Source of the DNA: Oscillospiraceae bacterium
Lineage (GTDB): Bacteria > Bacillota > Clostridia > Oscillospirales > Ruminococcaceae
Assembly: GCA_017415165.1 (NCBI GenBank)
Contig: JAFQIY010000035.1
Location: forward strand, 62,001 to 126,000
DNA length: 64,000 bases
Direction of reading: 5' to 3'
Shown here: in pieces, positions 49,583 through 62,360 of the stretch
Position numbering within the stretch: position 1 is the stretch's first letter
Layout: each line of letters opens with the position of its first letter
The notes under the pieces: generated by a model
Told to the model about the DNA's origin: nothing
Seen by the model: the letters and a program-made list of their open reading frames with translations, nothing else
Database searches by the model: none
Position numbers and translations under genes: made by a program

Positions 49583-49615
49583 AATTACGAATTACGCATT
49601 ACGAATTGCGAATTT
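49583..49615. repeat. Heptamer repeat copy 1 (four units plus AATTT)
   Basis: Units AATTACG, AATTACG, CATTACG, AATTGCG, then AATTT. The repeat overlaps the first bases of the PH-like gene's stop codon (49614-49616) and lies 75 bp before argB. Confidence 0.9.
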
Positions 49616-50168
49616 ATAAATACATATGCACCTTTGAACTTTCGCTTTCAATTATGTAACGCACATTTTCCGCTTCCTCAGGGGTAAGTCCGCCGATTGT
49701 GCCGTTTCCTGAAATTACATTATTCTCTCCCTGATATTCAATGGAATAGACCACATCAGCCTTACTTCCCTTTTCTTTCACCTGCACGGAAGTGATGTTT
49801 GTCAGATACTCCATTTCAAAACCCCGTCCCGCATCTGTAAGAATACGCATATTCGTTACCGCAAAAAACGCCTTTGTTCTGCCTGCCGAAAACGCCTTGA
49901 CATAAATGACAATGCCGACAACTATAAACAGCACGCCAAAATAGCTCATCATACCTCCGCCTGCTCTGAACATACCTACCGTCCAGAACAACGCAAAAGC
50001 CGTCCATAATGTTGCAAAGAAAATCATATACAGCTTTGCAGCAAGATTTGCCTTGACGCCTGCGACAGCAACACCTTTTCCGCACCACACGATATGCTCG
50101 CCGATTTCAAGGTGACGATTGAATTTTACCGTAATCTGACGGTCGAAAGTGCTGTTTTGCTCAGTCAT
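49614..50168 (-). CDS. PH-like membrane protein, function unknown
   Basis: 184 aa. Two adjacent membrane helices (about 45-66 and 75-95) are followed by a bacterial PH-type domain (about 98-184; FFAVTNMRILTDAGRGFEMEYLTNITSVQVKEKG), similar to YdbS/bPH_2-like membrane proteins. The ATG at 50168 follows GGGAGAG. It lies between argJ and argB and has a heptamer repeat on each side. Confidence 0.7.
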   Translation of the reverse strand: MTEQNSTFDRQITVKFNRHLEIGEHIVWCGKGVAVAGVKANLAAKLYMIFFATLWTAFALFWTVGMFRAGGGMMSYFGVLFIVVGIVIYVKAFSAGRTKAFFAVTNMRILTDAGRGFEMEYLTNITSVQVKEKGSKADVVYSIEYQGENNVISGNGTIGGLTPEEAENVRYIIESESSKVHMYL

Positions 50169-50200
50169 TTCTACTCTCTCCCTTGCGTAAAATAATTACT

Positions 50201-50227
50201 AATTACGCATTGCGAATTACGAATTAT
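50201..50227. repeat. Heptamer repeat copy 2 (three units)
   Basis: Units AATTACG, CATTGCG, AATTACG, then AATTA, running up to the argJ stop codon (50227-50229). Confidence 0.85.
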
Positions 50228-51450
50228 CAAGACCTGTAATCCCCGTTAATCTTAACATAATCATAAGTCAGGTCACAGCCCCACGCTGTAGCCTTTGCGT
50301 CACCCGAATTAAGTTCGATGTAAATTTCAATTTCGTCCTCGGTAAGAACAACCTTTGCCTCGTCCTCGGAGAATTCTACGCCTGCACCGTTGCGGCAAAC
50401 TGCAATGCGTCCTGCCTTTGAAGCAAGGTCAACGTCAACCTTTGTAATGTCGAAATCAGCCTCAGCGTAGCCGATTGCACAGAGAACACGTCCCCAGTTT
50501 GCATCAGCGCCGAACATTGCACACTTGAACAGCGGAGAACGGATTACACTCTTTGCAACGATGATTGCCGTGTCAAGGTCAGGTGCAGAGGAACAAACGC
50601 AGGTAAGAAGCTTTGTTGCACCCTCGCCGTCCTTTGCAAGCATTCTTGTAAGGTTAGCCATAACCTGATAAAGAGCGTCCTTGAATGTAGCAAAATCAGC
50701 ATTTTCCTCAGTAATTTCCGCATTTTCAGCAAGTCCCGAGGACATCAGCATACAGGTGTCGTTTGTGGACTGGTCGCCGTCAACGGAAAGGCAGTTATAT
50801 GTAATCTTCACGATTTCGGAAAGTGCCTTCTGCAAAAGTTCAGCAGAAATTGCACAGTCTGTTGTGATGAAGTTGAGTGTTGTAGCCATATTAGGGTGAA
50901 TCATACCGCTGCCCTTAGCCATACCGCCCATCTTGCAGAGCTTGCCGCCGATTTCAAATTCAACAGCGTATTCCTTCTTCACGGTGTCGGTTGTCATAAT
51001 AGCAGTTGCAGCCTCAAGATTGCCCTCGTAGGAAAGCTTCTTCACAAGTTCAGGAACAGCCTCACGGATTGGCTCGATAGGCAAAATCTGACCGATTACA
51101 CCTGTTGAAGCAACGATAACCTGTTCAGGTGCAATGCCAAGAGCGTCAGCGGTAAGCTTACACATTTCCAGTGCCTTTTCCTCACCGTCAGCGTTGCAGG
51201 TGTTAGCATTCTTTGAGTTTGCAATAACAGCCATAGCCTTGCCGCCGCTTTTTGCAAGGTTGTTCTTTGTAACAACAACAGGCGCACCCTTAACCTTGTT
51301 GGAGGTGTACACACCAGCCGCGTTGCACATAACGTCCGAAACAATCAGACAGATGTCATTCTTCTTTGTAGGGTTCTCCTTGATGCCGCAGTAAAGACCG
51401 CTTGCCTTGAAGCCCTTTGCGGCACACACGCCGCCGTCGATAATTTTCAT
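50227..51450 (-). CDS. argJ: Bifunctional ornithine acetyltransferase/N-acetylglutamate synthase
   Basis: 407 aa from ATG 51450 (RBS AAAGGAG). Recycles the acetyl group from N-acetylornithine to glutamate. The self-cleavage site is A189-T190 in HPNMATTLNF, with Thr190 the nucleophile; KGSGMI precedes it and the C-terminus is YVKINGDYRS, as expected. With ArgJ present, a separate argA or argE is not needed, and none is in the cluster. Confidence 0.97.
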   Translation of the reverse strand: MKIIDGGVCAAKGFKASGLYCGIKENPTKKNDICLIVSDVMCNAAGVYTSNKVKGAPVVVTKNNLAKSGGKAMAVIANSKNANTCNADGEEKALEMCKLTADALGIAPEQVIVASTGVIGQILPIEPIREAVPELVKKLSYEGNLEAATAIMTTDTVKKEYAVEFEIGGKLCKMGGMAKGSGMIHPNMATTLNFITTDCAISAELLQKALSEIVKITYNCLSVDGDQSTNDTCMLMSSGLAENAEITEENADFATFKDALYQVMANLTRMLAKDGEGATKLLTCVCSSAPDLDTAIIVAKSVIRSPLFKCAMFGADANWGRVLCAIGYAEADFDITKVDVDLASKAGRIAVCRNGAGVEFSEDEAKVVLTEDEIEIYIELNSGDAKATAWGCDLTYDYVKINGDYRS

Positions 51451-51473
51451 ATTGCAAAAATCTCCTTTTCTTT

Positions 51474-51507
51474 GAATTCGCAATTCGCAATGCGTAATGC
51501 GTAATTA
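51474..51507. repeat. Heptamer repeat copy 3 (inverted orientation)
   Basis: Units GAATTCG, CAATTCG, CAATGCG, TAATGCG, then TAATTA, the complement form of copies 1 and 2. Its last bases are the stop codon of paralogue A (51505-51507). Confidence 0.9.
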
Positions 51508-51918
51508 TTCTTCATACCACATTGCGGAAATATCTTCGCTTTCAAAATATTTATAGTAATAGGGATTGACTGAGTAGCCTTCAAAAAATGCACAACCGCC
51601 GCCAATGTATTCCCTGTCAGCATTATAAACACCAACACTGTTGCACCCGTCAAGAGCAATCGCATAACGTTTTCCGTCAATGTCAAAGCCAACTTCATAA
51701 TCACGAGGACACTTGCCGCTTATTGCTGTATCATACTTCATACGCAGAATATAGACAACCTGTTCAGCATCCTCATCAGAAAGCCTGATACTCTCATCAC
51801 CGCAAACGGCATAAACCTCAGCGTTTGGTCTTATGAAAAAACCTACTCTTATTCCGACAGCAAGCGAAACGGCAAAAATCAAAATCCAGAAAAAAGTGAT
51901 TATGGCGAATTTTTTCAT
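51505..51918 (-). CDS. Unknown secreted/membrane-anchored protein, tandem paralogue A
   Basis: 137 aa from ATG 51918 (RBS AAGGGAG). One N-terminal hydrophobic segment (about 4-25), then a soluble domain with VYAVCGDESIRLSDEDAEQVVYILR, VGFDIDGKRYAIALDGCNSVGVYN and the closing KYFESEDISAMWYEE. Two Cys per domain (CGDE and DGC) could form a disulfide. It closely resembles paralogue B next to it; no family was recognised. Codon use looks normal. Confidence 0.75.
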   Translation of the reverse strand: MKKFAIITFFWILIFAVSLAVGIRVGFFIRPNAEVYAVCGDESIRLSDEDAEQVVYILRMKYDTAISGKCPRDYEVGFDIDGKRYAIALDGCNSVGVYNADREYIGGGCAFFEGYSVNPYYYKYFESEDISAMWYEE

Positions 51919-51936
51919 TTTGACTTCTCCCTTTGA

Positions 51937-51970
51937 TAATTCGCAATTCGCAATGCGTAATGCGTAATTA
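51937..51970. repeat. Heptamer repeat copy 4 (inverted orientation)
   Basis: Units TAATTCG, CAATTCG, CAATGCG, TAATGCG, then TAATTA. It ends on the stop codon of paralogue B (51968-51970) and precedes the RBS of paralogue A by about 10 bases. Confidence 0.9.
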
Positions 51971-52396
51971 TTCTTCATACCACATTGCAGAAATATCCTC
52001 GTTATCAAAATATTTAAAGTAATAAGGATCGATTGAACCCTCATCTAAATAAAGGTAACCGTCACCAATGTGTTCCCCGCCGGCATTGTAAACCTGAACG
52101 GTGCTGCAGCCGTCAAGAGCAATTGCATAACGTTTTCCTTCAATATCAAAGCCTATTCTGTCATCATATGGGCACTTGAAGCCGCCACGAGCGTCGTATT
52201 TGTGACAAAGCAGATAAACAACCTTTTCCGCATCCTCATCCGAAAGCTTAACACGCTCATCGCCGCAAACTGCATAGACCTCTGCTTTTTCTCCTATAAC
52301 AAAGCTTTCAATGAAAAAACCTGCTCTGTTGAAATCAGCAAAAAATGCGGCGGCAATGATTAAAAACCAAAGTAAAGTAATTACTGGTGTTTTCAT
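51968..52396 (-). CDS. Unknown secreted/membrane-anchored protein, tandem paralogue B
   Basis: 142 aa from ATG 52396. Same layout as paralogue A: hydrophobic segment (about 4-25), CGDERVKLSDEDAEKVVYLL, IGFDIEGKRYAIALDGCSTVQVYN, and an identical C-terminal DISAMWYEE. The copies are most alike in the core and C-terminus. The RBS-start region (AAGGGAGAAGTCAAAATGAAA) and the heptamer repeat downstream are also shared, so gene plus repeat was duplicated as a unit of about 465 bp. Confidence 0.75.
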   Translation of the reverse strand: MKTPVITLLWFLIIAAAFFADFNRAGFFIESFVIGEKAEVYAVCGDERVKLSDEDAEKVVYLLCHKYDARGGFKCPYDDRIGFDIEGKRYAIALDGCSTVQVYNAGGEHIGDGYLYLDEGSIDPYYFKYFDNEDISAMWYEE

Positions 52397-52414
52397 TTTG
52401 ACTTCTCCCTTTGA

Positions 52415-52448
52415 TAATTCGCAATTCGCAATGCGTAATGCGTAATTA
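52415..52448. repeat. Heptamer repeat copy 5 (inverted orientation)
   Basis: Identical in unit order to copy 4. It ends on the stop codon of the four-helix-bundle gene (52446-52448). Confidence 0.9.
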
Positions 52449-52814
52449 TTTATTTGACAATTCAATTGCTTTTTGAGATTTTGTTATTGACATCAGTATT
52501 TTTAATAATTCCTTGCAATCAGAATATATGCTGTCAAAATGAACATTTTCAATATACCCACTCTCTCCGAGTAGTTCAAGCCAATATTCGGTTTCACTCG
52601 CTTCCTTCAATGCAATATTCATTTTTGCATAAAAATCAGCTTTGCTTTGACCTCTTATCGCCTCTTTTACATTTGCACCGATACTCGTGCCGCTTCGTAA
52701 TACCTGCTTTGAAAGAACATATTCTTTCTTTTCTGAAATAAGATACTTATACAGCTTTATAATTCTTAACGCAAAAGCCTTACTCTTGTCAACAATTACA
52801 TTTTGCTCTTTCAT
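52446..52814 (-). CDS. Four-helix-bundle protein (23S rRNA intervening-sequence type)
   Basis: 122 aa, all helical. Family features: AFALRIIKLYKYL at the start, LSKQVLRSGTSIGANVKEAIRGQSKADFYAKMNIALKEASETEYWLELL in the centre (about 38-87; key SxxSIGANxxEA and EAxExxYWL), and a C-terminal helix. Such proteins occur within 23S rRNA insertions or alone at scattered loci, and one group is linked to retroelements; the molecular role is unsettled. Here it stands between argC and paralogue B with a heptamer repeat on each side. The start ATG 52814 has only a weak RBS. Confidence 0.88.
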   Translation of the reverse strand: MKEQNVIVDKSKAFALRIIKLYKYLISEKKEYVLSKQVLRSGTSIGANVKEAIRGQSKADFYAKMNIALKEASETEYWLELLGESGYIENVHFDSIYSDCKELLKILMSITKSQKAIELSNK

Positions 52815-52833
52815 AATGTTTTCTCACCCATTT

Positions 52834-52866
52834 AATTGCGAATTGCGCATTGCGCATTACGAATTA
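52834..52866. repeat. Heptamer repeat copy 6
   Basis: Units AATTGCG, AATTGCG, CATTGCG, CATTACG, then AATTA, covering the argC stop codon (52864-52866). Confidence 0.9.
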
Positions 52867-53811
52867 AACCAGCCCTGTTGTTTCGTCAATCCCCATCATA
52901 ATATTCATACACTGTACAGCCGCACCGCTTGCACCCTTACCGAGGTTGTCAAGACGTGAGCAAAGCAGGACGTGGTCGTCGTTGCCGAAAACGAAAATCT
53001 GCATAAGGTTTGTATTCTTCAAAGTATTAGCCGCAAGGAAACCGTCCTCTAAAACGCCCTCGCCCATAAACGGCATTACCTTTACGAAATTCTGTCCCTC
53101 GTAGTGCTGTGCCATAACCTCCCATACGTGCTGTGCGGAGGTTTTCTTTGCCATTGCACGGAGGTGAAGCGGAATGGAAACAACCATACCGTTGTAATAG
53201 TTGTCAACAATAGGATTGAAAATCGGCGGATAGGAAAGTCCCGAAATCGCCATCATTTCCTTGATGTGCTTATGTGTTTTGCCCATAGAATACTGTCTTG
53301 GTGAGTTGTACTCGTCAGGCTTGTTGTCGCCCTCATAAACAGCGATAGCCTTCTTGCCTGCGCCGCTGTAGCCTGAAACTGCGTGGCAGATAATCGGGTG
53401 ATAAGGTGCAATAAGCCCCTCCTGCACGATTGGATAAAGTGCCGCATTGAAGCCGCTTGCATAGCAACCAGGTACAGCCACTCTGTTGGAGTTTGCAATC
53501 TTGTTTCTGTGAGCCTTTGAAAGCTCAGGCAGACCGTATGCCCACGCAGGATTTGTTCTGTGAGCTGTGGAAGCGTCGATAATTCTTGTATTCTTGTTTT
53601 CTACCAGTGAAACGGACTCAATAGCCGCCGCATCAGGCAGACAGAGGAAAGTGAAATCCGACTCATTTATAAGACGCTTTCTTTCCAGTGCACTCTTTCT
53701 TAAATCCTCGTCAATTTTAAGAATTTCAACATCTGTTCTGTCCTTGAATCGCTCAATAATTTTAAGTCCCGTAGTGCCTTCCTGACCGTCTATAAAAATC
53801 TTGTATGCCAT
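52864..53811 (-). CDS. argC: N-acetyl-gamma-glutamyl-phosphate reductase (type 2 form)
   Basis: 315 aa, the shorter type. NAD(P)-binding start IFIDGQEGTTGLKI, the catalytic Cys116 in VPGCYASGFNAALYP, and the His in ICHAVSGYSGAGKK. It reduces acetylglutamyl phosphate to the semialdehyde. The ATG at 53811 follows AAAGGAAAG. ARG-box-like sequences fill the upstream region. Confidence 0.95.
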   Translation of the reverse strand: MAYKIFIDGQEGTTGLKIIERFKDRTDVEILKIDEDLRKSALERKRLINESDFTFLCLPDAAAIESVSLVENKNTRIIDASTAHRTNPAWAYGLPELSKAHRNKIANSNRVAVPGCYASGFNAALYPIVQEGLIAPYHPIICHAVSGYSGAGKKAIAVYEGDNKPDEYNSPRQYSMGKTHKHIKEMMAISGLSYPPIFNPIVDNYYNGMVVSIPLHLRAMAKKTSAQHVWEVMAQHYEGQNFVKVMPFMGEGVLEDGFLAANTLKNTNLMQIFVFGNDDHVLLCSRLDNLGKGASGAAVQCMNIMMGIDETTGLV

Positions 53812-53880
53812 TTCAATTCTTTCCTTTCGTTATTGTCGTCTATATAAAATGTAGTTTTATTATATAGTCCGCTTGTTAAA

Positions 53881-53959
53881 TTTTATTGTATATTCTGTAT
53901 ATTGTTTATTAATTTATGCAATTATTCACCGATATTCTGCATATTCTGAATTTTATGCA
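53881..53959 (-). promoter_or_regulatory. ARG-box-like operator cluster before argC
   Basis: A 22-bp palindrome with TGCATA and TATGCA ends lies at 53938-53959, overlapping the argH stop; the same ends with the same spacing are found before argG at 59495-59516. Further half-sites (TTATGCAATTATT at about 53914-53926; TGTATATTCTGTATAT at about 53887-53902) follow toward argC. A TATAAT at about 53858-53863 is a candidate -10 without a clear -35. Confidence 0.5.
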
Positions 53960-55329
53960 ATTGTACGGCGAATATATTCAATCTGAGTCTTTACAGACTC
54001 AGGTGCAGGACCGCCTGGTACTTTTCTCATATTCACGCAGGTTTCAAGGCTGATTGCCTCGTAAACGTCCTCCTCGAAGGTGTCGCAGAGTGCCTTGTAT
54101 TCAGCGAGAGGAAGCTCCTCAAGAGTTGTACCCTTTTCGATACAGGTTGCAACAAGTGTACCTGTAATCTTGTATGCGTCACGGAAAGGAAGTCCCTTCT
54201 TAACAAGGTAGTCAGCGCAGTCTGTAGCGTTGATGAAGCCCTTTGCCGCAGCCGCACGCATATTTTCACGGTTTACACGCATTGTCGCAAGCATAGGAAT
54301 GAATGTTGTGATACAAAGCTTTACTGTGTCAATTGCGTCGAAAATTGCCTCCTTGTCCTCCTGCATATCCTTATTATACGCAAGAGAGAGCCCTTTCATC
54401 ATAACAAGAAGTGTATTTAAATCTCCGTACACACGTCCTGTCTTGCCGCGGATAAGTTCAGTAATATCAGGATTTTTCTTCTGCGGCATAATTGACGAGC
54501 CTGTTGAATAAGCGTCATCAAGCTCAATGAACTTGAATTCCCACGAGCACCACATAACGATTTCCTCGGAGAAGCGGGAAAGGTGCATCATAAGGATAGA
54601 AAGTGCCGAGCAAAGCTCAATGCAGAAATCTCTGTCGGAAACGCCGTCAAGGCTGTTCTGTGTGATATCGTCAAAGCCGAGAAGTGCGGAAACCTGACGT
54701 CTGTCAATCGGATAGGTTGTAGAAGCAAGTGCACCGCTTCCGAGCGGCATATAATTCATTCTCTTGTATGTGTCGGAAATTCTGCCCAAATCACGGACAA
54801 GCATATTTGCGTACGCCATAAGGTGGTGTGCAAAAGTGATTGGCTGTGCTCTCTGCAAGTGTGTGTAGCCGGGCATTACAGTGTTGAGATTATCCTCAGC
54901 AAGTGTGCAGATTGTTTCGATAAGCTCTCTTACCATCGGCACGATTTCCATAATCTCGTCCTTGAGGTACATTCTGATATCAAGCGCAACCTGGTCGTTG
55001 CGGCTTCTTGCAGTGTGAAGTCTCTTGCCTGTGCCGCCGAGTCTTTCGGTGAGGACCTGCTCAACAAACATATGGATATCCTCAGCGTTAGGGTCAAACA
55101 TAAGCTTGCCGCTGTCAATATCGTTGAGAATACCTGTAAGACCCTCAACAATCTTCTCACTTTCGCTCTTGTCAATGATACCTGTATCGCCAAGCATTGT
55201 AGCGTGTGCAATCGAGCCGCGGATATCCTGCTTATACATTCTTGCGTCAAAGGAAATTGAAGAGTTGAAGTCATTTACACGCTTGTCAAGCTCCTTGGAA
55301 AAGCGTCCAGCCCACATTTTATCTGCCAT
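53953..55329 (-). CDS. argH: Argininosuccinate lyase
   Basis: 458 aa. The superfamily signature is GSSIMPQKKNPD at 277-288, with the catalytic Ser in it; HTARSRNDQ (105-113) and TPGYTHLQRAQPI-like PGYTHLQRAQPI are present. It releases arginine and fumarate. The ATG at 55329 follows AAAGGAG. It lies downstream of the two lipoproteins rather than next to argG. Confidence 0.97.
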   Translation of the reverse strand: MADKMWAGRFSKELDKRVNDFNSSISFDARMYKQDIRGSIAHATMLGDTGIIDKSESEKIVEGLTGILNDIDSGKLMFDPNAEDIHMFVEQVLTERLGGTGKRLHTARSRNDQVALDIRMYLKDEIMEIVPMVRELIETICTLAEDNLNTVMPGYTHLQRAQPITFAHHLMAYANMLVRDLGRISDTYKRMNYMPLGSGALASTTYPIDRRQVSALLGFDDITQNSLDGVSDRDFCIELCSALSILMMHLSRFSEEIVMWCSWEFKFIELDDAYSTGSSIMPQKKNPDITELIRGKTGRVYGDLNTLLVMMKGLSLAYNKDMQEDKEAIFDAIDTVKLCITTFIPMLATMRVNRENMRAAAAKGFINATDCADYLVKKGLPFRDAYKITGTLVATCIEKGTTLEELPLAEYKALCDTFEEDVYEAISLETCVNMRKVPGGPAPESVKTQIEYIRRTIA

Positions 55330-55341
55330 AATAATTCTCCT

Positions 55342-56535
55342 TTATTCGTTTTCTTCAAAATCTATATTTTCCAAATCAAATTCTTCGCCGTCAAAGGTTA
55401 CGTCAGCCGTAATTTTCGGCATACACTCATACATCATCCACGACGTACTCGGTGAAGCACTCAATTTAACCCTGTTGCCGTCAAACTCAAAGCCAATCAT
55501 ATTACCGAAGCTGATTTCATCAATACCGTCAGGGTAAGCCTTAGCCGTGCTTGTGGAATAAATCTCATCCGTGCCGTAAGCCGCAAAATCAAGCCAGTCG
55601 TTTTCACTGTCTATGTAGTAATTTACATACTCATCAATCAGCGACTCAGCGTCAAGCCTGTGTGCCGTGAAGTGTCCGTCGCCGCCTTTTTCGTACACAA
55701 CCAACTCGGAAATACTGAAACCCGTACCCGAACCGATGTAGTAGTCCACCACAAGTTCGTCATCACCGTCATTGTCGATATCCATCCACTCTGCATTCGG
55801 GAGCATACTTCTCGGAGTCAGCCAGTTCTGCTCAAACTCGTCGATTACATTGCCCTGCTCAATAATAATCAGCGGCTCGGTTTCGTCGGGGTAAACCCCG
55901 TAAATTCTTGTGTTGTCAGCCTCGGCAATCAGAACAGCGTGCTTTGTGAATTCCATCTCCGTATCCGACTCATCGAACCTGTAATTCGGGTCAAGCACAT
56001 ATCCGCTGGGCGAGGTGCTCCCGTTCAGCTGAATTTCCGTTTCAGTTTCGTCAGCATTCTGAACTGGCTTTTGGGTCTTCTGTTTAGGCACGCCGATTTT
56101 CTTCATCACGTCCTCGGAAACCCTTGTGTAATCGTATGTATGTTCATCGGTAATCCAGTAAAGCGTTTCGCCGTCGCTGCTCAGCTCAAGCTTTGCAAAC
56201 GCATCCTCACCGTTATTGTCAATTTTAATCATCAGTTCCTCAAAGGAATATTCCGTCGGTTCATAGGTTTTTATCTGCCACTCGGCAAAATCACATTCGT
56301 GCCAAAGATAATTATAATTATCTGTAAATTCAAGCACCGAAACCGCCGCATTTTCCTCAGCAACCGTCTTTTCAAACAGCTCAATATCGTCCGTCCAGTA
56401 GCCCACCAGCGAAGCCTGCAATGCGTTCTCCGCCTCGGTGTAGTCCACCTGCTCCTCCTTTGAGCAAGCCGTGAGCATAAGTGCTGCCATTATCACAGAC
56501 AGCACCAGTGCCGCTGTTTTTTTATCATTAATCAA
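55342..56535 (-). CDS. Putative lipoprotein upstream of argH
   Basis: 397 aa if it starts at TTG 56535 just after ACAGGA; this gives a clean lipoprotein signal (INDKKTAALVLSVIMAALMLTAC, lipobox LTAC). The RBS would overlap the end of the preceding gene. After a Glu/Thr-rich stretch (about 150-175), the domain contains an EF-hand-like acidic loop, MDIDNDGDDELVVDYY (about 255-270), as in the lipoprotein at 4271-6031. The function is unknown. It lies 12 bp before argH. Confidence 0.7.
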   Translation of the reverse strand: MINDKKTAALVLSVIMAALMLTACSKEEQVDYTEAENALQASLVGYWTDDIELFEKTVAEENAAVSVLEFTDNYNYLWHECDFAEWQIKTYEPTEYSFEELMIKIDNNGEDAFAKLELSSDGETLYWITDEHTYDYTRVSEDVMKKIGVPKQKTQKPVQNADETETEIQLNGSTSPSGYVLDPNYRFDESDTEMEFTKHAVLIAEADNTRIYGVYPDETEPLIIIEQGNVIDEFEQNWLTPRSMLPNAEWMDIDNDGDDELVVDYYIGSGTGFSISELVVYEKGGDGHFTAHRLDAESLIDEYVNYYIDSENDWLDFAAYGTDEIYSTSTAKAYPDGIDEISFGNMIGFEFDGNRVKLSASPSTSWMMYECMPKITADVTFDGEEFDLENIDFEENE

Positions 56536-56542
56536 TTCCTGT

Positions 56543-58021
56543 TCACTCTCTTTCAGGCACAATTTTTCCGCCCTGTGCAGCAAACTCGTCTGCCTGTTCC
56601 TTCGGGATAATCTGTCCGTAATCGCTTATATAAGTAATTGCCGAACCATAAAGCGGAGAGATATCGCTGATTTCACAGCAATCCACACCAAGCCGTGTTA
56701 TATTACCCAATGAAGCAAGCTTTGCAAAATCAATGTTGCTGTAATCATAAAGGGATAAGTAGCTTGCCATCGGAAAAAGGGAGATAAACTCATAGTCGCC
56801 GTCAGTAAGCTCCTTCTTTGTGAGAGCATCAGTGGGAATTGAATCCATAATGCTCAGATATTCCTCACCCCTATAGCTGATAATATCAATCGATGTATAT
56901 TCCGAAGAAGCAATCCCCTCAAAAAGAGCCTTGCCCTCGTCATTCAGATGCGGAAGAAGCTCATCAATCGGAACCTCCATAAGTCTTATACCGTCAGCAT
57001 AGCTGCCATATTCATACGGTGCAATATAAAAACCGACACTGCCGTCTTTCAGGTTAAACCTTTTATCAGCCACGCAGTAGCCGATTATATAATCGCCATT
57101 TTCATCAATTCCGCATTCAATCGTATCCATATAGCTGTTATCCGCATTCTTCATTGTTTCAACAAACGATGCGTACTCACTCAGCTCTGTGTCATTGTAC
57201 AGTACCCGTGTTATAAACATCGAATCATAGATTCTCGCCATATATTTCTCGGCAACGGCATCCTTGTCAGCAATCATTTCCGAAAGCCTGATAAGCTCAC
57301 CTGTCCTGAGGTCAAACATCATAGGAACAGGCAGTGTGTAGCCGTGCGCCGCACCTGCACTATATGAAAAATCATACACCGTAAGCGAAAGGATATTGCC
57401 GCTCACCGAATCAATCTCAAAGCTGATTTCACGCATATTCTTTGTTACAGTATGCTCGTAGAATTCCGCGGTTTCCTCATCATATTCACCATCGGAATTG
57501 TAGCACATTCTTTCTGCCTCAGCCTTTTCATATTCATACGCCTCATCAGCGTAATCCTTCAGATACCGGTTGATTTTTTCGCATACGACTTCATCTCCGC
57601 CGGTAAATACGGGATACTCCGCATTATATGCCGTAATATCCAGACCGCTTTCATCAGTGAACACTTCTTCTGTATATTCCTCTATCCACTTAATGTCTGA
57701 ATTCAGAGAAACCCTGCCGACTGTACACAGCGGATAACTGTCATAACGCTCGCTTATCGGGAAAACCGTCGGTCGTTCACTTCCGTCATGCGGTTCTTCT
57801 TCAATCGGCTCCTCCTCGGTAACTGTCACCGTTGTTTTTTCTTCAAACGCTGTTGTATCTGCCGTTGTAATCTCTGTCTCATAAGCCGTTGTTGTAACCT
57901 CTGTCTCAGAAACCGTTGTAACCTGCTCAGTTTCGCTAACCGCTTCATTGCCGCCATTGCCGCAGGCAGTAAGCATTATCGCCGTCAATATAGCCAAAAA
58001 CAAGGCTGTTTTCCTGCCCAA
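56543..58021 (-). CDS. Lipoprotein with DUF3298/RsiV-like domain and a leucine-rich C-terminus
   Basis: 492 aa from TTG 58021 (nine bases after AAAGG; a GTG three codons earlier abuts the RBS). Lipobox LTAC, then about 60 residues of Thr/Glu/Val linker. The middle (about 95-330) fits the DUF4163/DUF3298 pair seen in RsiV and PdaC: KWIEEYTEEVF..YPVFTGG and YDFSYSAGAAHGYTLPVPMMFDLRTGELIRLSEM. The C-terminal 60 residues read like two leucine-rich-repeat turns (LGNITRLGVDCCEISDISPLYG). Role unknown; RsiV-type domains bind lysozyme in Bacillus. Confidence 0.72.
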   Translation of the reverse strand: MGRKTALFLAILTAIMLTACGNGGNEAVSETEQVTTVSETEVTTTAYETEITTADTTAFEEKTTVTVTEEEPIEEEPHDGSERPTVFPISERYDSYPLCTVGRVSLNSDIKWIEEYTEEVFTDESGLDITAYNAEYPVFTGGDEVVCEKINRYLKDYADEAYEYEKAEAERMCYNSDGEYDEETAEFYEHTVTKNMREISFEIDSVSGNILSLTVYDFSYSAGAAHGYTLPVPMMFDLRTGELIRLSEMIADKDAVAEKYMARIYDSMFITRVLYNDTELSEYASFVETMKNADNSYMDTIECGIDENGDYIIGYCVADKRFNLKDGSVGFYIAPYEYGSYADGIRLMEVPIDELLPHLNDEGKALFEGIASSEYTSIDIISYRGEEYLSIMDSIPTDALTKKELTDGDYEFISLFPMASYLSLYDYSNIDFAKLASLGNITRLGVDCCEISDISPLYGSAITYISDYGQIIPKEQADEFAAQGGKIVPERE

Positions 58022-58061
58022 AACCGTCACCCTTTCCTTACCCGAAAAACGAACAAAGGGG

Positions 58062-58110
58062 CGGGGCATAATTGCACTGAAAAAACCGTGCAACCATACC
58101 TTTCGCCCCG
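58062..58110. repeat. Nested hairpin downstream of argG
   Basis: The outer stem is CGGGGC/GCCCCG (58062-58067 with 58105-58110) and the inner stem TTGCAC/GTGCAA (58072-58077 with 58088-58093), 18 bases after the argG stop. There is no T-run outside, but a T-run is in the inner loop on the leftward strand. It may slow or end argG transcripts before the lipoprotein genes. Confidence 0.5.
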
Positions 58111-58127
58111 AATATTATTCAAGAAAC

Positions 58128-59357
58128 TTACTTGTTGTTTCTCTTAGCGTCAAGCTTAGCCTTAACCTTGATTGGAAGACCAAAGAGGTTGATGAAGCCT
58201 GCGGAATCCTTCTGGTCGTAAACTTCGTCCTCGTCAAATGTAGCAACTTCCTCATCATAGAGTGTGTATGGAGAAGTTACGCCTGCGTTGATGATGTTGC
58301 CCTTGTAAAGCTTGAGCTTAACATCACCAGTAACTGTTTCCTGAGTCTTGTCAACGAAAGCGGAAAGAGCTTCACGGACAGGTGTGTACCACTGACCGTT
58401 GTAAACAATATCAGCAAAGTCGATAGCGAGCTTCTGCTTCATTCTCTGTGTAGCCTTGTCGAGAGTGATTGTTTCGAGAACATCGTGAGCGTGGTAAAGA
58501 ATTGTTCCGCCGGGTGTTTCGTAAACGCCTCTTGACTTCATACCAACGAGACGGTTTTCAACGATGTCAGCAAGACCGATACCGTTTGCACCGCCAAGCT
58601 CGTTGAGCTTCTTGATAACGGAAACGCCGTCCATTTCAACGCCGTCAACAGCTGTTGGAATACCCTTTTCAAAGTGGATTGTTACATATGTAGGCTTGTC
58701 AGGAGCCTGAAGTGGGGAAACGCCCAGTTCAAGGAAGCCTTCCTTCTCGTACATTGGTTCATTTGCAGGGTCTTCAAGGTCAAGACCTTCGTGGGAAAGG
58801 TGCCAAAGGTTCTTATCCTTTGAGTAGTTTGTTTCTCTGTTAATCTTGAGAGGAATGTTGTGAGCCTCTGCGTAGTCGATTTCTTCATCTCTGGACTTGA
58901 GGTCCCAGATTCTCCAAGGAGCGATGATTTCCATATCAGGAGCAAAAGCCTTGATTGTAAGTTCAAATCTTACCTGGTCGTTACCCTTACCTGTGCAGCC
59001 GTGGCAGATAGCGTCAGCGCCTTCAGCGAGAGCGATTTCAACAATTCTCTTAGCAATGATAGGACGTGCAAAGGAAGTACCGAGGAGATACTTGCCCTCG
59101 TAAACAGCCTGAGCCTTGAGTGTTGGGAATACGAATTCTTCAACGAATTCCTTGTTGAGGTCTTCGATGTAGAGCTTGGAAGCACCTGTCTTGATAGCCT
59201 TTTCTTCGAGACCGTCAAGCTCTGTGCCCTGTCCAACGTCACCTGAAACAGCGATTACTTCACAGTTGTTGTAGTTTTCCTTGAGCCACGGAATGATGAT
59301 AGAAGTATCAAGTCCGCCAGAGTAAGCAAGGACAACCTTTTTGATTTCTTTAGCCAT
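58128..59357 (-). CDS. argG: Argininosuccinate synthase
   Basis: 409 aa from ATG 59357 (RBS GGAGGAA). The ATP pyrophosphatase loop AYSGGLDTS is at 11-19; the [15 protein letters not shown] block and the [21 protein letters not shown] block follow. It joins citrulline and aspartate. First gene of the arginine cluster in the direction of transcription; a strong promoter with ARG-box-like sites precedes it. Confidence 0.97.
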
Positions 59358-59416
59358 AGTTAATTCCTCCATTATTTATACAGCTTTGAACTGTTTATTT
59401 TACAATTACAATCCTA

Positions 59417-59444
59417 ATTATACACCATTAATATGCTTTGTCAA
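59417..59444 (-). promoter_or_regulatory. SigA-type promoter of argG
   Basis: Read leftward: TTGACA (59439-59444), 16-base spacer, TATAAT (59417-59422), giving a leader of about 50 bases. Confidence 0.75.
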
Positions 59445-59449
59445 GTGGT

Positions 59450-59540
59450 TTTTGCATATTTTTATAATTTTATTTGCCAATATTCATTATTCGGTGCATA
59501 ATTTTAATTTTATGCAACTTTTATCTGCATATTTTGCATA
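59450..59540 (-). promoter_or_regulatory. ARG-box-like sites upstream of the argG promoter
   Basis: A 22-bp palindrome at 59495-59516 has TGCATA and TATGCA ends and an all-A/T centre. TGCATATTTTGCATA lies at 59526-59540 and a third TTTTTGCATA at about 59450-59459. They lie upstream of -35 instead of over it, so the mode of control may differ from the argD promoter. Confidence 0.5.
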
Positions 59541-59551
59541 TATACACATTG

Positions 59552-60367
59552 TTATTCATTTTCAGCAGCAACATCAATCACCACAACCTCAGGCTGATTG
59601 AACACACGGGGCAGAATATTCTTGCACAGTCCACGGCTTACAACCATTTCAGTTGTGCCGTCAGCAAGGGTGTAGTGTCCCCCTGCGTGCTTCGGAAACA
59701 CACCCTGATTAGGCGCATACAAACCATTCAGCAGAAACGGAATACGCACCTGACCGCCGTGAGCGTGACCGCACACAACAAGGTCAAAATTGTTGCCGCT
59801 GTACAAATCAACGTGGTCGGGACGGTGGGACATAAGCACCGTATATTTCTCCCCTGCCGCCTTTGCACAATCAGCAAACTGCGCACCATACATCTCATTA
59901 TCAACGCCGCAGATACGGATTTCGCCGAAGTCAACGTATTCGCCCTCTAAAATTTCCACACCGCACTCGTCAACAATTTTCTTGATATTGTCAACCTCAC
60001 CCGACCATTCCTCGTGGTTGCCCGTGGTGTAATAACAAGGATACTTTTCTGCAAGCTGAGAAAGCAGCTCAATGCTGTTTTCGTGAGGACGGACGTCCTC
60101 GAAAATATCCCCCGCAAGCAGGATAACGTCAGGCTGCTGCCTGTCAACAACGTCAAGCAAGACCTGCTGATTTGCACCGTAGCTGCTGCTGTGGAAATCG
60201 GTCAGCAGAACAATTCTCGTGTCCTCGGTAACCTTGTCCGTGACGAATTCGTAACGGGGCACGGTTATCCCCACATCGCAGGCAATCACCGCCAGTATCA
60301 GCAGCCAGCCGAGAATTATGTAGGTGACACGCTTCTCCCAGATTGATTTTTTTGCTTCTTTTGTCAT
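59552..60367 (-). CDS. Membrane-anchored calcineurin-like metallophosphoesterase
   Basis: 271 aa. One N-terminal membrane helix (about 13-32), then a phosphoesterase domain with all metal ligands: the D-x-H in LLTDFHS, GDIFED, GNHEEW, the His in SHRPDH, and GHAHGG. It resembles the YkuE/YaeI group that acts at the cell surface on phosphorylated lipids or nucleotides. The start is ATG 60367 after AAGGTG. The substrate is unknown. Confidence 0.88.
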   Translation of the reverse strand: MTKEAKKSIWEKRVTYIILGWLLILAVIACDVGITVPRYEFVTDKVTEDTRIVLLTDFHSSSYGANQQVLLDVVDRQQPDVILLAGDIFEDVRPHENSIELLSQLAEKYPCYYTTGNHEEWSGEVDNIKKIVDECGVEILEGEYVDFGEIRICGVDNEMYGAQFADCAKAAGEKYTVLMSHRPDHVDLYSGNNFDLVVCGHAHGGQVRIPFLLNGLYAPNQGVFPKHAGGHYTLADGTTEMVVSRGLCKNILPRVFNQPEVVVIDVAAENE

Positions 60368-60400
60368 AGTTTTGTTTTCACCTTCAAAGTCACAGATTTA

Positions 60401-61108
60401 TTAATACATAAAATGTGCAATAATCATCGCTGCGATATTTGCTAAAAAAGTACAGATAATCAACTTGATGACGATTGAATAACTGGAATTGGTTTCAATT
60501 TTTAATGTAGCAAGATAAAATCGGTGTTTTGCAATACGTCTTGCGTTATAATGAAAATCCTGCATAACAGCAAACGCACGGTATTCACTGCCGAACATAA
60601 ACCTTTCAGCAAACCTGTAAAACTTCAGCCGTTCTGCATAATACGCCCTTCTGATAACTCTGTTCTCCTCGAAATAATAATATTTGTCCTTGAGATAATC
60701 AAAAAATATATCAGACGTCATTTTCAGTTTAAGCCTGTCAAACCAATTGATTTTGATATTCTGACTTTTAGTTAAAAAATCCTTGTATCGTTCTGACGGT
60801 TCAACATTGCCGTTTATAATTTCGTTTTTGAATTTAAGCATAAACACAGCGAGAAAATAATGTTCAAAATAATATTTCTGTTCCTCATAATTTGAGAAAT
60901 CAGTGTTATCATATATTTCTTTCAAATATTCTGAAATCTGACTTTTTTCAATTTTGTCAGAAATATTTTTGCATATTTTCTCCGTGTCAATTTCCAACAT
61001 TCCTTCAAAAAATTCAAAAACAGGAGCCCAATTTTTATCTGTCATCAAATTATAATTCCAAGATAGTTCATCTAATATTTTTATGTCTTTTGTTTTGGGT
61101 TTCAACAT
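60401..61108 (-). CDS. AT-rich orphan with C-terminal membrane helix
   Basis: 235 aa from ATG 61108 (RBS GAGGTG). Rich in Lys, Ile, Tyr and Phe, predicted mostly helical, with YFEHYFLAVFMLKF in the centre and a single hydrophobic helix at the C-terminus (about 208-232; IVIKLIICTFLANIAAMIIA). Base composition is far more AT-rich than its neighbours, suggesting recent acquisition. No family was recognised. Confidence 0.65.
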   Translation of the reverse strand: MLKPKTKDIKILDELSWNYNLMTDKNWAPVFEFFEGMLEIDTEKICKNISDKIEKSQISEYLKEIYDNTDFSNYEEQKYYFEHYFLAVFMLKFKNEIINGNVEPSERYKDFLTKSQNIKINWFDRLKLKMTSDIFFDYLKDKYYYFEENRVIRRAYYAERLKFYRFAERFMFGSEYRAFAVMQDFHYNARRIAKHRFYLATLKIETNSSYSIVIKLIICTFLANIAAMIIAHFMY

Positions 61109-61161
61109 TGCAAGCTATCACCTCAATTGTTGCAAACTTTATCTTTACCGCTATACATAGG

Positions 61162-61387
61162 CAGTGACTTCGTCACTGTTAGGAAATTTCTCTCTTGCAG
61201 AAATTTCCTCTTTTGAGGCGCCGCCTCAAAATTCACCTTTTAGATGCGCTTAAAGCACGCTCTGCGAAAACCAAACGTAAGCGTTTGGTTGCGAAGAAAG
61301 GATTTCGCTCTCCTGCTCAAAACAAACAAGTTTGTTTGCGACCAAAGGGCTTTGCCCTTTGGAAACCCACCACCTTTGAAAAGGTGG
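61162..61387. repeat. Array of about eight consecutive hairpins (palindrome array)
   Basis: In order: CAGTGAC/GTCACTG (61162-61178), AGGAAATTTCT/AGAAATTTCCT (61181-61209), TTTTGAGGC/GCCTCAAAA (61211-61231), AACCAAACG/CGTTTGGTT (61269-61290), GCGAA/TTCGC (61291-61308), AAACAAAC/GTTTGTTT (61320-61337), CCAAAGGGC/GCCCTTTGG (61342-61362), CCACCTTT/AAAGGTGG (61370-61387). Most stems are perfect with loops of two to seven bases. A 73-codon rightward opening crosses it but looks like chance. The rest of 61109-61459 has only a heptamer repeat. Confidence 0.85.
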
Positions 61388-61429
61388 ACGAAACTTTTCA
61401 TCTGCCAACTTTATGAGTTTACTCAAACT

Positions 61430-61462
61430 AATTACGAATTACGCATTGCGCATTACGAATTA
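61430..61462. repeat. Heptamer repeat copy 7
   Basis: Units AATTACG, AATTACG, CATTGCG, CATTACG, then AATTA, ending on the punA stop codon (61460-61462). Confidence 0.9.
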
Positions 61463-62296
61463 AACTTCTTTCCCAAGTCTGATAACTGACTCTGTAACCA
61501 GCTTCTTGAAAAGCGGTGCAACTCTGTCAGCTGTTTCCTGCACCTCAGCGTGTGTAAGCGGATTTTCGGTAATTCCGCAAGCCATATTGGAAATGCAGGA
61601 AATTCCCACAACCCTCATACCTGCGTGGTTTGCGGCAATTGCTTCACAAGCTGTTGACATACCTACAGCGTCAGCACCGAGAGTTCTTACCATTCTGATT
61701 TCGGCAGGTGACTCATAGTTAGGACCTGTCAGCTGAATGTAAACGCCCTCCTGCAATGGGATATCCAAATCCTTTGCAGCGTCCCTCACAATCGCTCTCA
61801 GGTCACGGTTGTAGATGTTGCTCATATCAGGGAAACGCACGCCCAATTCGTCAGCATTCGCACCAATCAGCGGTGAAGGAGCCATACAAATCTGGTCGGA
61901 AATAAGCATAAAATCTCCTGCGTGGTAATCGAAATTCACGCCGCCTGCCGCATTTGTCAGGAACAGGATTTTCGCACCCATCATCTTCATAAGACGAACA
62001 GGGAGAACGACATCCTCCATCGGATAGCCCTCATAGTAGTGGACTCTGCCCTGCATAATAACAACCTTGACGTCGCCCACATAGCCGAACACAAAGCGAC
62101 CCTTGTGACCTGCAACGGTAGACTTAGGGAAGCCCTCAATCTCGCCGTAATCGAGAGTTGCTTCAATCTTTATTCCGTCGGCATAGTCACCCAGACCTGA
62201 ACCGAGAATAAGCGCCACATCAGGCACAAAATCAATCTTCTCCCTGAAACACTTATAGCATTTTTCCAAACGTTCATAAATTCTGCTCATTTTCAT
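61460..62296 (-). CDS. punA: Purine nucleoside phosphorylase (trimeric PNP type)
   Basis: 278 aa from ATG 62296 (GAGGGG just upstream; the ATG two codons later is also possible). Phosphate-site LILGSGLGDYAD, VAGHKGRFVFG, RVHYYEGYPME, LTNAAGGVN, the base-site GPNYESPAEIRM and VGMSTACEAIAANHAG are all in place. It splits purine nucleosides to base and ribose-1-phosphate. The gene is followed by the palindrome array and preceded by a heptamer repeat after pullulanase. Confidence 0.95.
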   Translation of the reverse strand: MKMSRIYERLEKCYKCFREKIDFVPDVALILGSGLGDYADGIKIEATLDYGEIEGFPKSTVAGHKGRFVFGYVGDVKVVIMQGRVHYYEGYPMEDVVLPVRLMKMMGAKILFLTNAAGGVNFDYHAGDFMLISDQICMAPSPLIGANADELGVRFPDMSNIYNRDLRAIVRDAAKDLDIPLQEGVYIQLTGPNYESPAEIRMVRTLGADAVGMSTACEAIAANHAGMRVVGISCISNMACGITENPLTHAEVQETADRVAPLFKKLVTESVIRLGKEV

Positions 62297-62327
62297 TGCT
62301 CCCCTCAAATTTAATGTACAATTATAT

Positions 62328-62360
62328 AATTACGAATTACGCATTGCGAATTGCGAATTA
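62328..62360. repeat. Heptamer repeat copy 8
   Basis: Units AATTACG, AATTACG, CATTGCG, AATTGCG, then AATTA, ending on the pullulanase stop codon (62358-62360). Confidence 0.9.

Follow-up and report, generated by a model that had tools for sequence, protein, structure and literature searches.

The window analysed here is a stretch of 64,000 nucleotides (nt) from an Oscillospiraceae bacterium (assembly GCA_017415165.1, contig JAFQIY010000035.1, positions 62,001 to 126,000). It carries eight short intergenic repeats of tandem heptamers, and these are probably the inverted stem arms of a small palindromic element of the S23 or intervening-sequence (IVS) type, from which single arms and doublets without an open reading frame (ORF) were derived. 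One pair of arms in the window encloses a gene for the S23/IVP four-helix-bundle protein (PF05635). Across the genomes compared, the arms lie mainly at stop codons with one polarity, PF05635 genes are often bordered by inverted period-7 arrays, and the 7-mer turns over at fixed positions. The elements are likely mobile with help of the S23/IVP protein. A first-pass annotation of the window had described the eight repeats and their place at stop codons, while the palindromic doublets, including the one enclosing the PF05635 gene, were missed in it.

Build of the arms and the PF05635 gene between them

All eight repeats were found in the window (Table 1), each being 32 nt long with four MATTNCG heptamers and a closing AATT. 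The units read [A/C]ATT[A/G]CG, and the sole deviating one was AATTACT, the first unit of the element at 50194; the start formerly given for this element, 50201, belongs to its second unit. A 32-nt periodicity scan returned exactly these eight as the period-7 segments of the window, all intergenic, with none of periods 5 and 8-11 and one of period 6, which lay in coding sequence.

The genome of the window (G000) was searched with a 32-mer at up to 3 mismatches, and the stretches around the listed matches were then examined. At up to 2 mismatches 45 merged elements were present, a long array being counted as one. Three or four units had been proposed by the first-pass annotation, and it was the four-unit form which held, with 32 nt in 43/46 matches. 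The exact pattern AATTRCG(MATTRCG)3AATT occurred 43 times, 12 of these being frames of the long array (C36:16135-16348), meanwhile the same pattern reversed (backwards) occurred 0 times. No element lay wholly inside a called gene.

Many AATTNCG elements were single, and those in pairs less than 400 nt apart were arranged (-)(+), 3' ends outward, in 32 of 38 cases. The arms of 24 close doublets were less alike than random arms of the same genome (0 of 1,000 random sets were as different), and six ORF-less doublets, chosen by hand, folded well as DNA (z -2.0 to -5.8). Pairing of doublet arms slipped by one heptamer was hinted at by two folds and was unsupported over the 24 doublets. A hairpin within the single arm was also rejected, with weak folds (z -0.7 to -2.8) and no covariation of the would-be pairing positions in G000, so a hairpin-type signal for mRNA 3' ends in the single element was not supported.

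The doublet of the window is arranged in this same orientation, with the PF05635 gene exactly between arms 52416-52447(-) and 52834-52865(+). Its protein (52446-52814) matched PF05635, 23S_rRNA_IVP, with E 4.1e-29. The order arm, PF05635 gene, arm was found at the same place in the relatives G005, G003 and G010, and in another genus (G268) a weak PF05635 match below the cut-off was located between two elements beside argC/argJ. Of the argC-argJ copies, that of G005 (C84:32296-32610) was interrupted by an in-frame stop and that of G003 (C200:4071-4268) gave a partial match only; the ATTCCG-type elements of these two genomes are few.

PF05635 and the elements also occurred together at the level of genomes. 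Nine of the 21 genomes of the genus had a PF05635 gene, namely every one of the 8 having two or more matches to the element and 1 of the 13 others (Fisher p 4.4e-5), and this additional genome, G008, bears other heptamer arrays. A PF05635 match was present in 48/297 genomes of the family (44 above the curated cut-off), including 5/6 with the exact AATTRCG pattern vs 43/291 without it (p 4.8e-4). Four copies were identified in G000: the copy in the window has AATTNCG arms, a second is flanked by AGTKTGG arrays, a third adjoins an AATAATG-type doublet and the fourth lies at a contig end.

Arrays of period 7 were counted within 350 nt of the gene at 41 PF05635 loci, which comprised all 14 genus matches and 27 further family loci outside the genus, out of those listed. 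They were present on both sides at 20 loci, on one side at 11 and on none at 10, a count which left out the right-hand array of L382 (seen in a separate inspection) and in which the gene of L390 was misplaced. Periods 5, 6, 8 and 9 gave 0/41 at the same loci. At the 27 loci from outside the genus the arrays were concentrated close to the gene: their density fell from 5.06 per kb in the first 100 nt to 0.75 per kb between 100 and 200 nt, and was 0-0.15 farther away. Thirteen of the 27 were two-armed, and the arms matched better inverted than direct in 12/13 (L404 was the exception). The share of left-arm 5-mers common to the reversed right arm was 0.55 for the gene's own arms and 0.11 for those of other genes; the 7-mer alphabets differed between these genes, each having its own. 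Beyond Clostridia, a PF05635-like gene was located between inverted AATTACG arrays in the cyanobacteria Dolichospermum sp. ST_sed8 and Sphaerospermopsis kisseleviana NIES-73. Short tandem heptamers, the short tandemly repeated repetitive (STRR) sequences, and tiny dispersed repeats, the small dispersed repeats (SDR), are known from Nostoc-type cyanobacterial genomes.

The S23/IVP genes might instead be passengers which inserted into, or survived between, heptamer arrays already there. This would fit the 78/80 pattern-found named loci, among the matches listed, which had no PF05635-like gene nearby, and the two other small genes of the window which are likewise bounded by arms. With 13/27 loci of other genera two-armed in matching alphabet, arrays rare further off, and the co-occurrence of PF05635 and elements by genome, it is nevertheless quite improbable.

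Most of the stretches examined had been selected for holding AATTNCG elements, and in these stretches 265 intergenic and 0 coding period-7 arrays were counted, vs 17 matches for periods 5, 6, 8, 9 and 10 together; 78 of the 265 belonged to types other than AATTNCG. Slippage during replication of AT-rich intergenic sequence, unconnected with any element, could account for the single long arrays of AATT-type units that G000 and G268 each have, but not readily for the four units of most copies, the dominance of period 7, the inversion of paired arms and the concentration of arrays at PF05635 genes. As the main cause it is considered refuted, and hardly any credence is left to it.

Placement and polarity at gene boundaries

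In the window, genes adjoining all eight elements run leftward. The statement that all eight lie at stop codons was borne out, since seven overlap the stop, by 2 nt in six (stops 51505, 51968, 52446, 52864, 61460 and 62358) and by 1 nt in one (49614), and the last is 1 nt clear of it (50227). Every junction from argC (52864) to argB (48624) was occupied, 6/6, as had been claimed.

Expected counts of stop-adjacent elements were obtained from uniform placement within the same intergenic interval. The set used for placement and polarity came from a slightly looser pattern, which likewise gave 45 G000 elements once the long array was removed. Genes were called by a simple codon-usage finder, which did not call the PF05635 gene of the window; for this reason the element at 52416 was not counted as stop-adjacent. 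Of 183 non-array elements, 167 had called genes on both sides in range, and only the 160 of these which bordered a gene 3' end were kept.

Among the G000 elements flanked on at least one side by a gene 3' end, 31/42 were stop-adjacent vs 9.5 expected, and 14/20 vs 1.1 in intergenic intervals of at least 100 nt. Leaving out the eight elements of the window, 24/34 were at a stop codon vs 6.9 expected, so the non-random placement first noticed in the window extended to the genome. For ten genomes pooled the count was 93/160 vs 21.4 expected, where the observed class covered -16..+6 and the null only -2..+6, with 13 cases at -9/-16 whose stops lay inside the element; in wide intervals it was 57/108 vs 4.4. 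These ten-genome counts were never attained in 20,000 simulations. In G268, 4/11 elements were stop-adjacent vs 0.5 expected (p 0.0008).

The element turned its 3' end toward the stop in 89 cases vs 6 with the 5' end (n=95), made up of 28/32 in G000 and 61/63 in the nine other genomes. It was 76 vs 6 without the stops deep in the element, and 37 vs 2 for elements at -1..+6 of the stop. The earlier description, by which the repeats sit at stops whichever way they point, was right for the eight (5 vs 3) and not in general; the three elements of the window which break the polarity rule lie in short junctions, with their own 3' end 19-24 nt from the next start codon. In the Bacteroidota (loci L051-L130, simple ORF calls) the few stop-adjacent AATTNCG arrays had mostly the 5' end toward the gene (8/9), while the Clostridia counterpart had the 3' end toward the gene in 6/6.

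The commonest junction was T/AATT (the slash marking the element border), in which the stop consisted of a T and the AA of the element, in 43 of the 95 stop-adjacent cases. Since the arm begins with AATT, T/AA restores the stop, and the idea that the element's end can serve as a replacement stop was thereby supported. Target duplication of TA in the manner of miniature inverted-repeat transposable elements (MITEs), by which TA/A would restore TAA, was not clearly supported, the T and A flanks being independent. The strand facing the gene was the richer in stops, closing 1.87 vs 0.18 frames in G000, and a seven-base unit may be of advantage by closing every reading frame. Period 7 as a device for a stop in three frames was not clearly supported, as heptamers shuffled at constant composition still close 1.64 frames and the polarity persists past the stop.

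Start codons formed a second class. The 3' end lay 4-30 nt upstream of a start in 12/45 G000 elements and the 5' end in 4/45, and in the nine other genomes elements before start codons had the 3' end toward the gene in 23 vs 2 cases. In all, 41/45 G000 elements touched a gene boundary, stop or start. Stop-codon placement is therefore the main but not the only one; equal frequency before starts, which the first-pass annotation had considered, was not found, the start-codon class being the minority.

Turnover in relatives and origin of the elements

Empty sites, which the first-pass annotation had proposed to look for, were present in relatives. At the argJ end there was no four-unit element in G005, G003, G004, G002 and G008, and a short remnant-like stretch in G010, which was also without the elements at gene 61460-62296 and at the gene ending 62358. 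At several junctions the relatives without the element terminated the protein at the identical residue. In G004 and G010 the reading frame of one gene continued into the element and ended inside it, with altered C-terminus and last codons; at this gene end G000 and G005 had no element. The number of copies varied widely within the genus.

Occupied sites differed in the 7-mer. In the stretches examined the unit was ATT[A/G]CG in G000, mostly ATTCCG in G005 and G003, and nearly only ATTACG in G015 and G019; the site 49583..49614 was occupied in G005 too, there with ATTCCG/ATTCCT units, while element 51938..51969 had no ortholog in the examined stretches of G005, G003, G004 and G010. AGTTGAC units were located at the argC stop in G008, and other G005 sites had AAAGTGG-type units in a similar four-unit form. 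With differing heptamer families at the same gene ends, site and build persist while the 7-mer changes. For sites shared by G000 and G005/G003 (15 pairs), divergence was 56% at the nine degenerate positions, 8.6% in the flanks and 3.8% at the 23 other positions, this last value being biased by the detection pattern. Of 8 pairs between G004 and G010, three were identical and five differed at 3 to 6 of the nine degenerate positions and nowhere else, and elements were nearly or fully identical between G005 and G003 (3 pairs) and between G015 and G019 (2 pairs).

Such a pattern could also be produced by maintained regulatory sites, the arms being degenerate-consensus targets of a protein that binds DNA or RNA, which may be S23/IVP itself and would work at gene boundaries in, say, mRNA processing or ribosome release; selection would keep position and core and the degenerate bases would drift. 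The divergence over the 15 pairs, with position kept, fits this, and the free combination at variable positions and the strict polarity agree with it. Against it stand the empty sites of close relatives, the very uneven copy number within the genus, the different heptamer families at the same gene end in different species, the bias of the core value and a second family in the same genome, which is plainly a clonal miniature element. Regulatory sites are accordingly an unlikely explanation.

For the favoured reading, that of arms of an S23/IVS-type element, the full form would be arm, S23/IVP gene and inverted arm, with an arm of 4 x 7 + 4 = 32 nt, as exemplified by 52416-52865. The ORF-less doublets, many of them short-spaced, and the single arms would derive from it. 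An element landing after the T of a stop codon and ahead of the next gene's Shine-Dalgarno sequence would be the least harmful, which may be why most elements are at gene ends. The S23/IVP protein would act on arms of its own alphabet, and movement perhaps went through RNA, because PF05635 was reported to resemble Avd, the accessory protein of diversity-generating retroelements (PMC10053308).

Several observations weigh against this reading. No movement of the elements was observed, and no target-site duplication was found, as T and A flanks were favoured but independent (joint 84 vs 82.9 expected). The ten of 41 PF05635 loci without any array have been given above. Control genes in the same loci (n=22) had arrays on both sides in 2 cases, on one in 16 and on none in 4; these arrays probably arise from bordering the same elements, so neighbouring genes are a poor control, not array-free, and the case rests on the distance profile. 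A PF05635-like gene was found in just 2/80 pattern-found named loci, among the matches listed, in a scan with a profile built from Clostridia proteins over stretches of up to 8 kb. Many genomes of the genus are incomplete. The loose pattern used genus-wide also matched backwards, e.g. 13 and 12 times in G015, perhaps as CATTACG units fit both ways. The polarity persists at -1..+6 of the stop and so requires more than the closing of frames. True IVSs lie in 23S rRNA, and the heptamer elements do not. Moreover, the variable positions look freely combined instead of clonal, with 29 distinct sequences among 36 where 31.3 were expected, and the differences between orthologous elements look like replacement; neither would be predicted from simple transposition. 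To obtain free combination and replacement at fixed sites, elements would have to insert repeatedly into the same gene ends, or arms would have to be copied from one another.

The nearest known counterpart is the IVS in the 23S rRNA of Coxiella; statements on this and the other published reports refer to the available portions of their text. The Coxiella IVS of 428 nt is inserted in helix 45, with a 28-bp terminal stem and an S23 ORF, preceded by three tandem heptamers (two in some strains) and a degenerate further one (PMC4990558). The window element likewise has an S23 ORF inside inverted terminal arms, over 450 nt, and both have tandem heptamers ahead of the ORF, toward the 5' end. It was this build, together with the resemblance of PF05635 to Avd, which led to the heptamer elements being read as S23/IVS-type. 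Unlike the 23S IVS, the copy in the window is intergenic, between argC and a small gene, dozens of ORF-less arms are present in one genome, and the 7-mer varies from gene to gene. IVSs with an S23p ORF were also named for Leptospira and Brucella, and the available text gives no known function for the S23/IVP proteins, although IVSs were discovered more than 25 years ago (PMC4990558).

Repetitive extragenic palindromic (REP) sequences, their doublets (REPINs) and the REP-associated tyrosine transposases (RAYTs) offer a second comparison (PMC3116915), in which palindromic doublets and singlets are dispersed between genes and repeats accompany the gene for a protein presumed to mobilise them. If the heptamer elements were of this type, mobilised by a Y1 (RAYT) transposase, inverted doublets in fixed relative orientation, unlike arms and singlets would be expected as found; stop-proximal placement is known for REPs (PMC12306157), and G015 and G017 have both elements and a PF01797 match. 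However, the protein here is the PF05635 four-helix bundle and the arms are period-7 direct repeats. The reading was rejected because no PF01797 match was found in G000; PF01797 gave no match either in G003, G004, G005, G010 and G019, all bearing elements, only 4/21 genus genomes have one, and no period-7 array was located at the five PF01797 loci examined (two from one place of G015). It is considered highly improbable.

The TAACTGA heptamers of Beggiatoaceae, cyanobacteria and Bacteroidetes (PMC4679880) also occur as a few intergenic tandem copies, near starts and sometimes overlapping gene ends or between stops. Horizontal spread was suspected for them with no mechanism given, and the available text of that report mentions neither a link to PF05635 nor an arm fixed at four units, an anchoring at stops or a rule of polarity (PMC4679880). 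Among 7,006 prokaryotic genomes surveyed, tandem heptamers were the most abundant intergenic repeat with no clear functional clue (PMC6344855); they share period and intergenic location with the elements described here, and the available text names neither a mechanism nor an associated protein. Apart from the Coxiella IVS, the link of PF05635 to heptamers was unreported in the open-access literature available, with subscription papers, where it may be printed, mostly outside this coverage.

The results tie heptamer repeats and S23/IVP proteins together and make each testable through the other, as the protein should predict an adjacent repeat and the repeat the protein; they offer a testable origin for the unexplained intergenic heptamers of many bacteria. 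Tentatively, and with slightly less than even confidence, these widespread heptamers may be the arms of an S23/Avd-like mobile class, in which each protein has its own alphabet, arm-bounded RNA or DNA enters gene ends, the stop is rebuilt and old arms are overwritten, the 23S IVS being one special landing place. If the elements are mobile, gene ends would be reshaped in natural operons, with stop codons and C-terminal residues replaced.

Features of the window and other heptamer families

Table 1. Heptamer arms and associated genes in the window (positions of the window; a slash marks the element border)
Feature	Position	Strand	Length	Context
Heptamer arm	49583..49614	+	32 nt	3' end at stop of gene 49614-50168
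Heptamer arm	50194..50225	+	32 nt	1 nt past argJ stop (stop at 50227; TGA T/AATT)
Heptamer arm	51475..51506	-	32 nt	Between gene 51505-51918 and argJ start; orthologous element in G005, G003, G010
Small gene	51505..51918	-		No Pfam match; tandem paralog; arms on both sides
Heptamer arm	51938..51969	-	32 nt	Separates the two paralogous small genes
Small gene	51968..52396	-		No Pfam match; tandem paralog; arms on both sides
Whole arm-ORF-arm element	52416..52865		450 nt	Between argC stop and start of gene 51968-52396
Left inverted arm	52416..52447	-	32 nt	Partner of 52834..52865
S23 / 23S_rRNA_IVP four-helix-bundle protein gene	52446..52814	-	122 aa	Between the inverted arms; PF05635
Right inverted arm	52834..52865	+	32 nt	3' end supplies argC stop (T/AA)
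Heptamer arm	61430..61461	+	32 nt	At stop of phosphorylase-superfamily gene 61460-62296
Heptamer arm	62328..62359	+	32 nt	At stop of gene ending 62358 (partial alpha-amylase domain match)

The second family of G000, with AGTGTGG-type arms, is a clonal palindromic miniature element, roughly 115 nt long, whose two arms are inverted and whose ends read TAAATTATAATTTAT (L345-L373). Of 29 aligned copies, 12 were within -9..+1 of a gene 3' end, as measured from the query-match ends, and some copies look like mosaics between left and right arm. A visual check of the predicted genes in four stretches showed no transposase next to partial copies, and no family search was run.

Directly 5' of about a dozen G000 elements, e.g. 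C36:36775 and C63:49339, a terminator-like hairpin such as GAACGCTTGCGTTCGTTTT was seen by eye. Such hairpins before the element were present in G004 and G010 too, with stem changes on both sides. Long heptamer arrays occurred once per genome in G000 (C36:16135-16348; L043 4136-4352) and in G268 (C90; L223 2522-2773), and in these two genera they consisted mostly of AATT-type units and adjoined different genes.

The two small paralogous genes of the window form a DNA repeat of 241 nt with 80% identity and a spacing of 463, among three direct-repeat arms. In G005 this region has one arm and no such genes, as if gene-plus-arm units had been inserted or duplicated.

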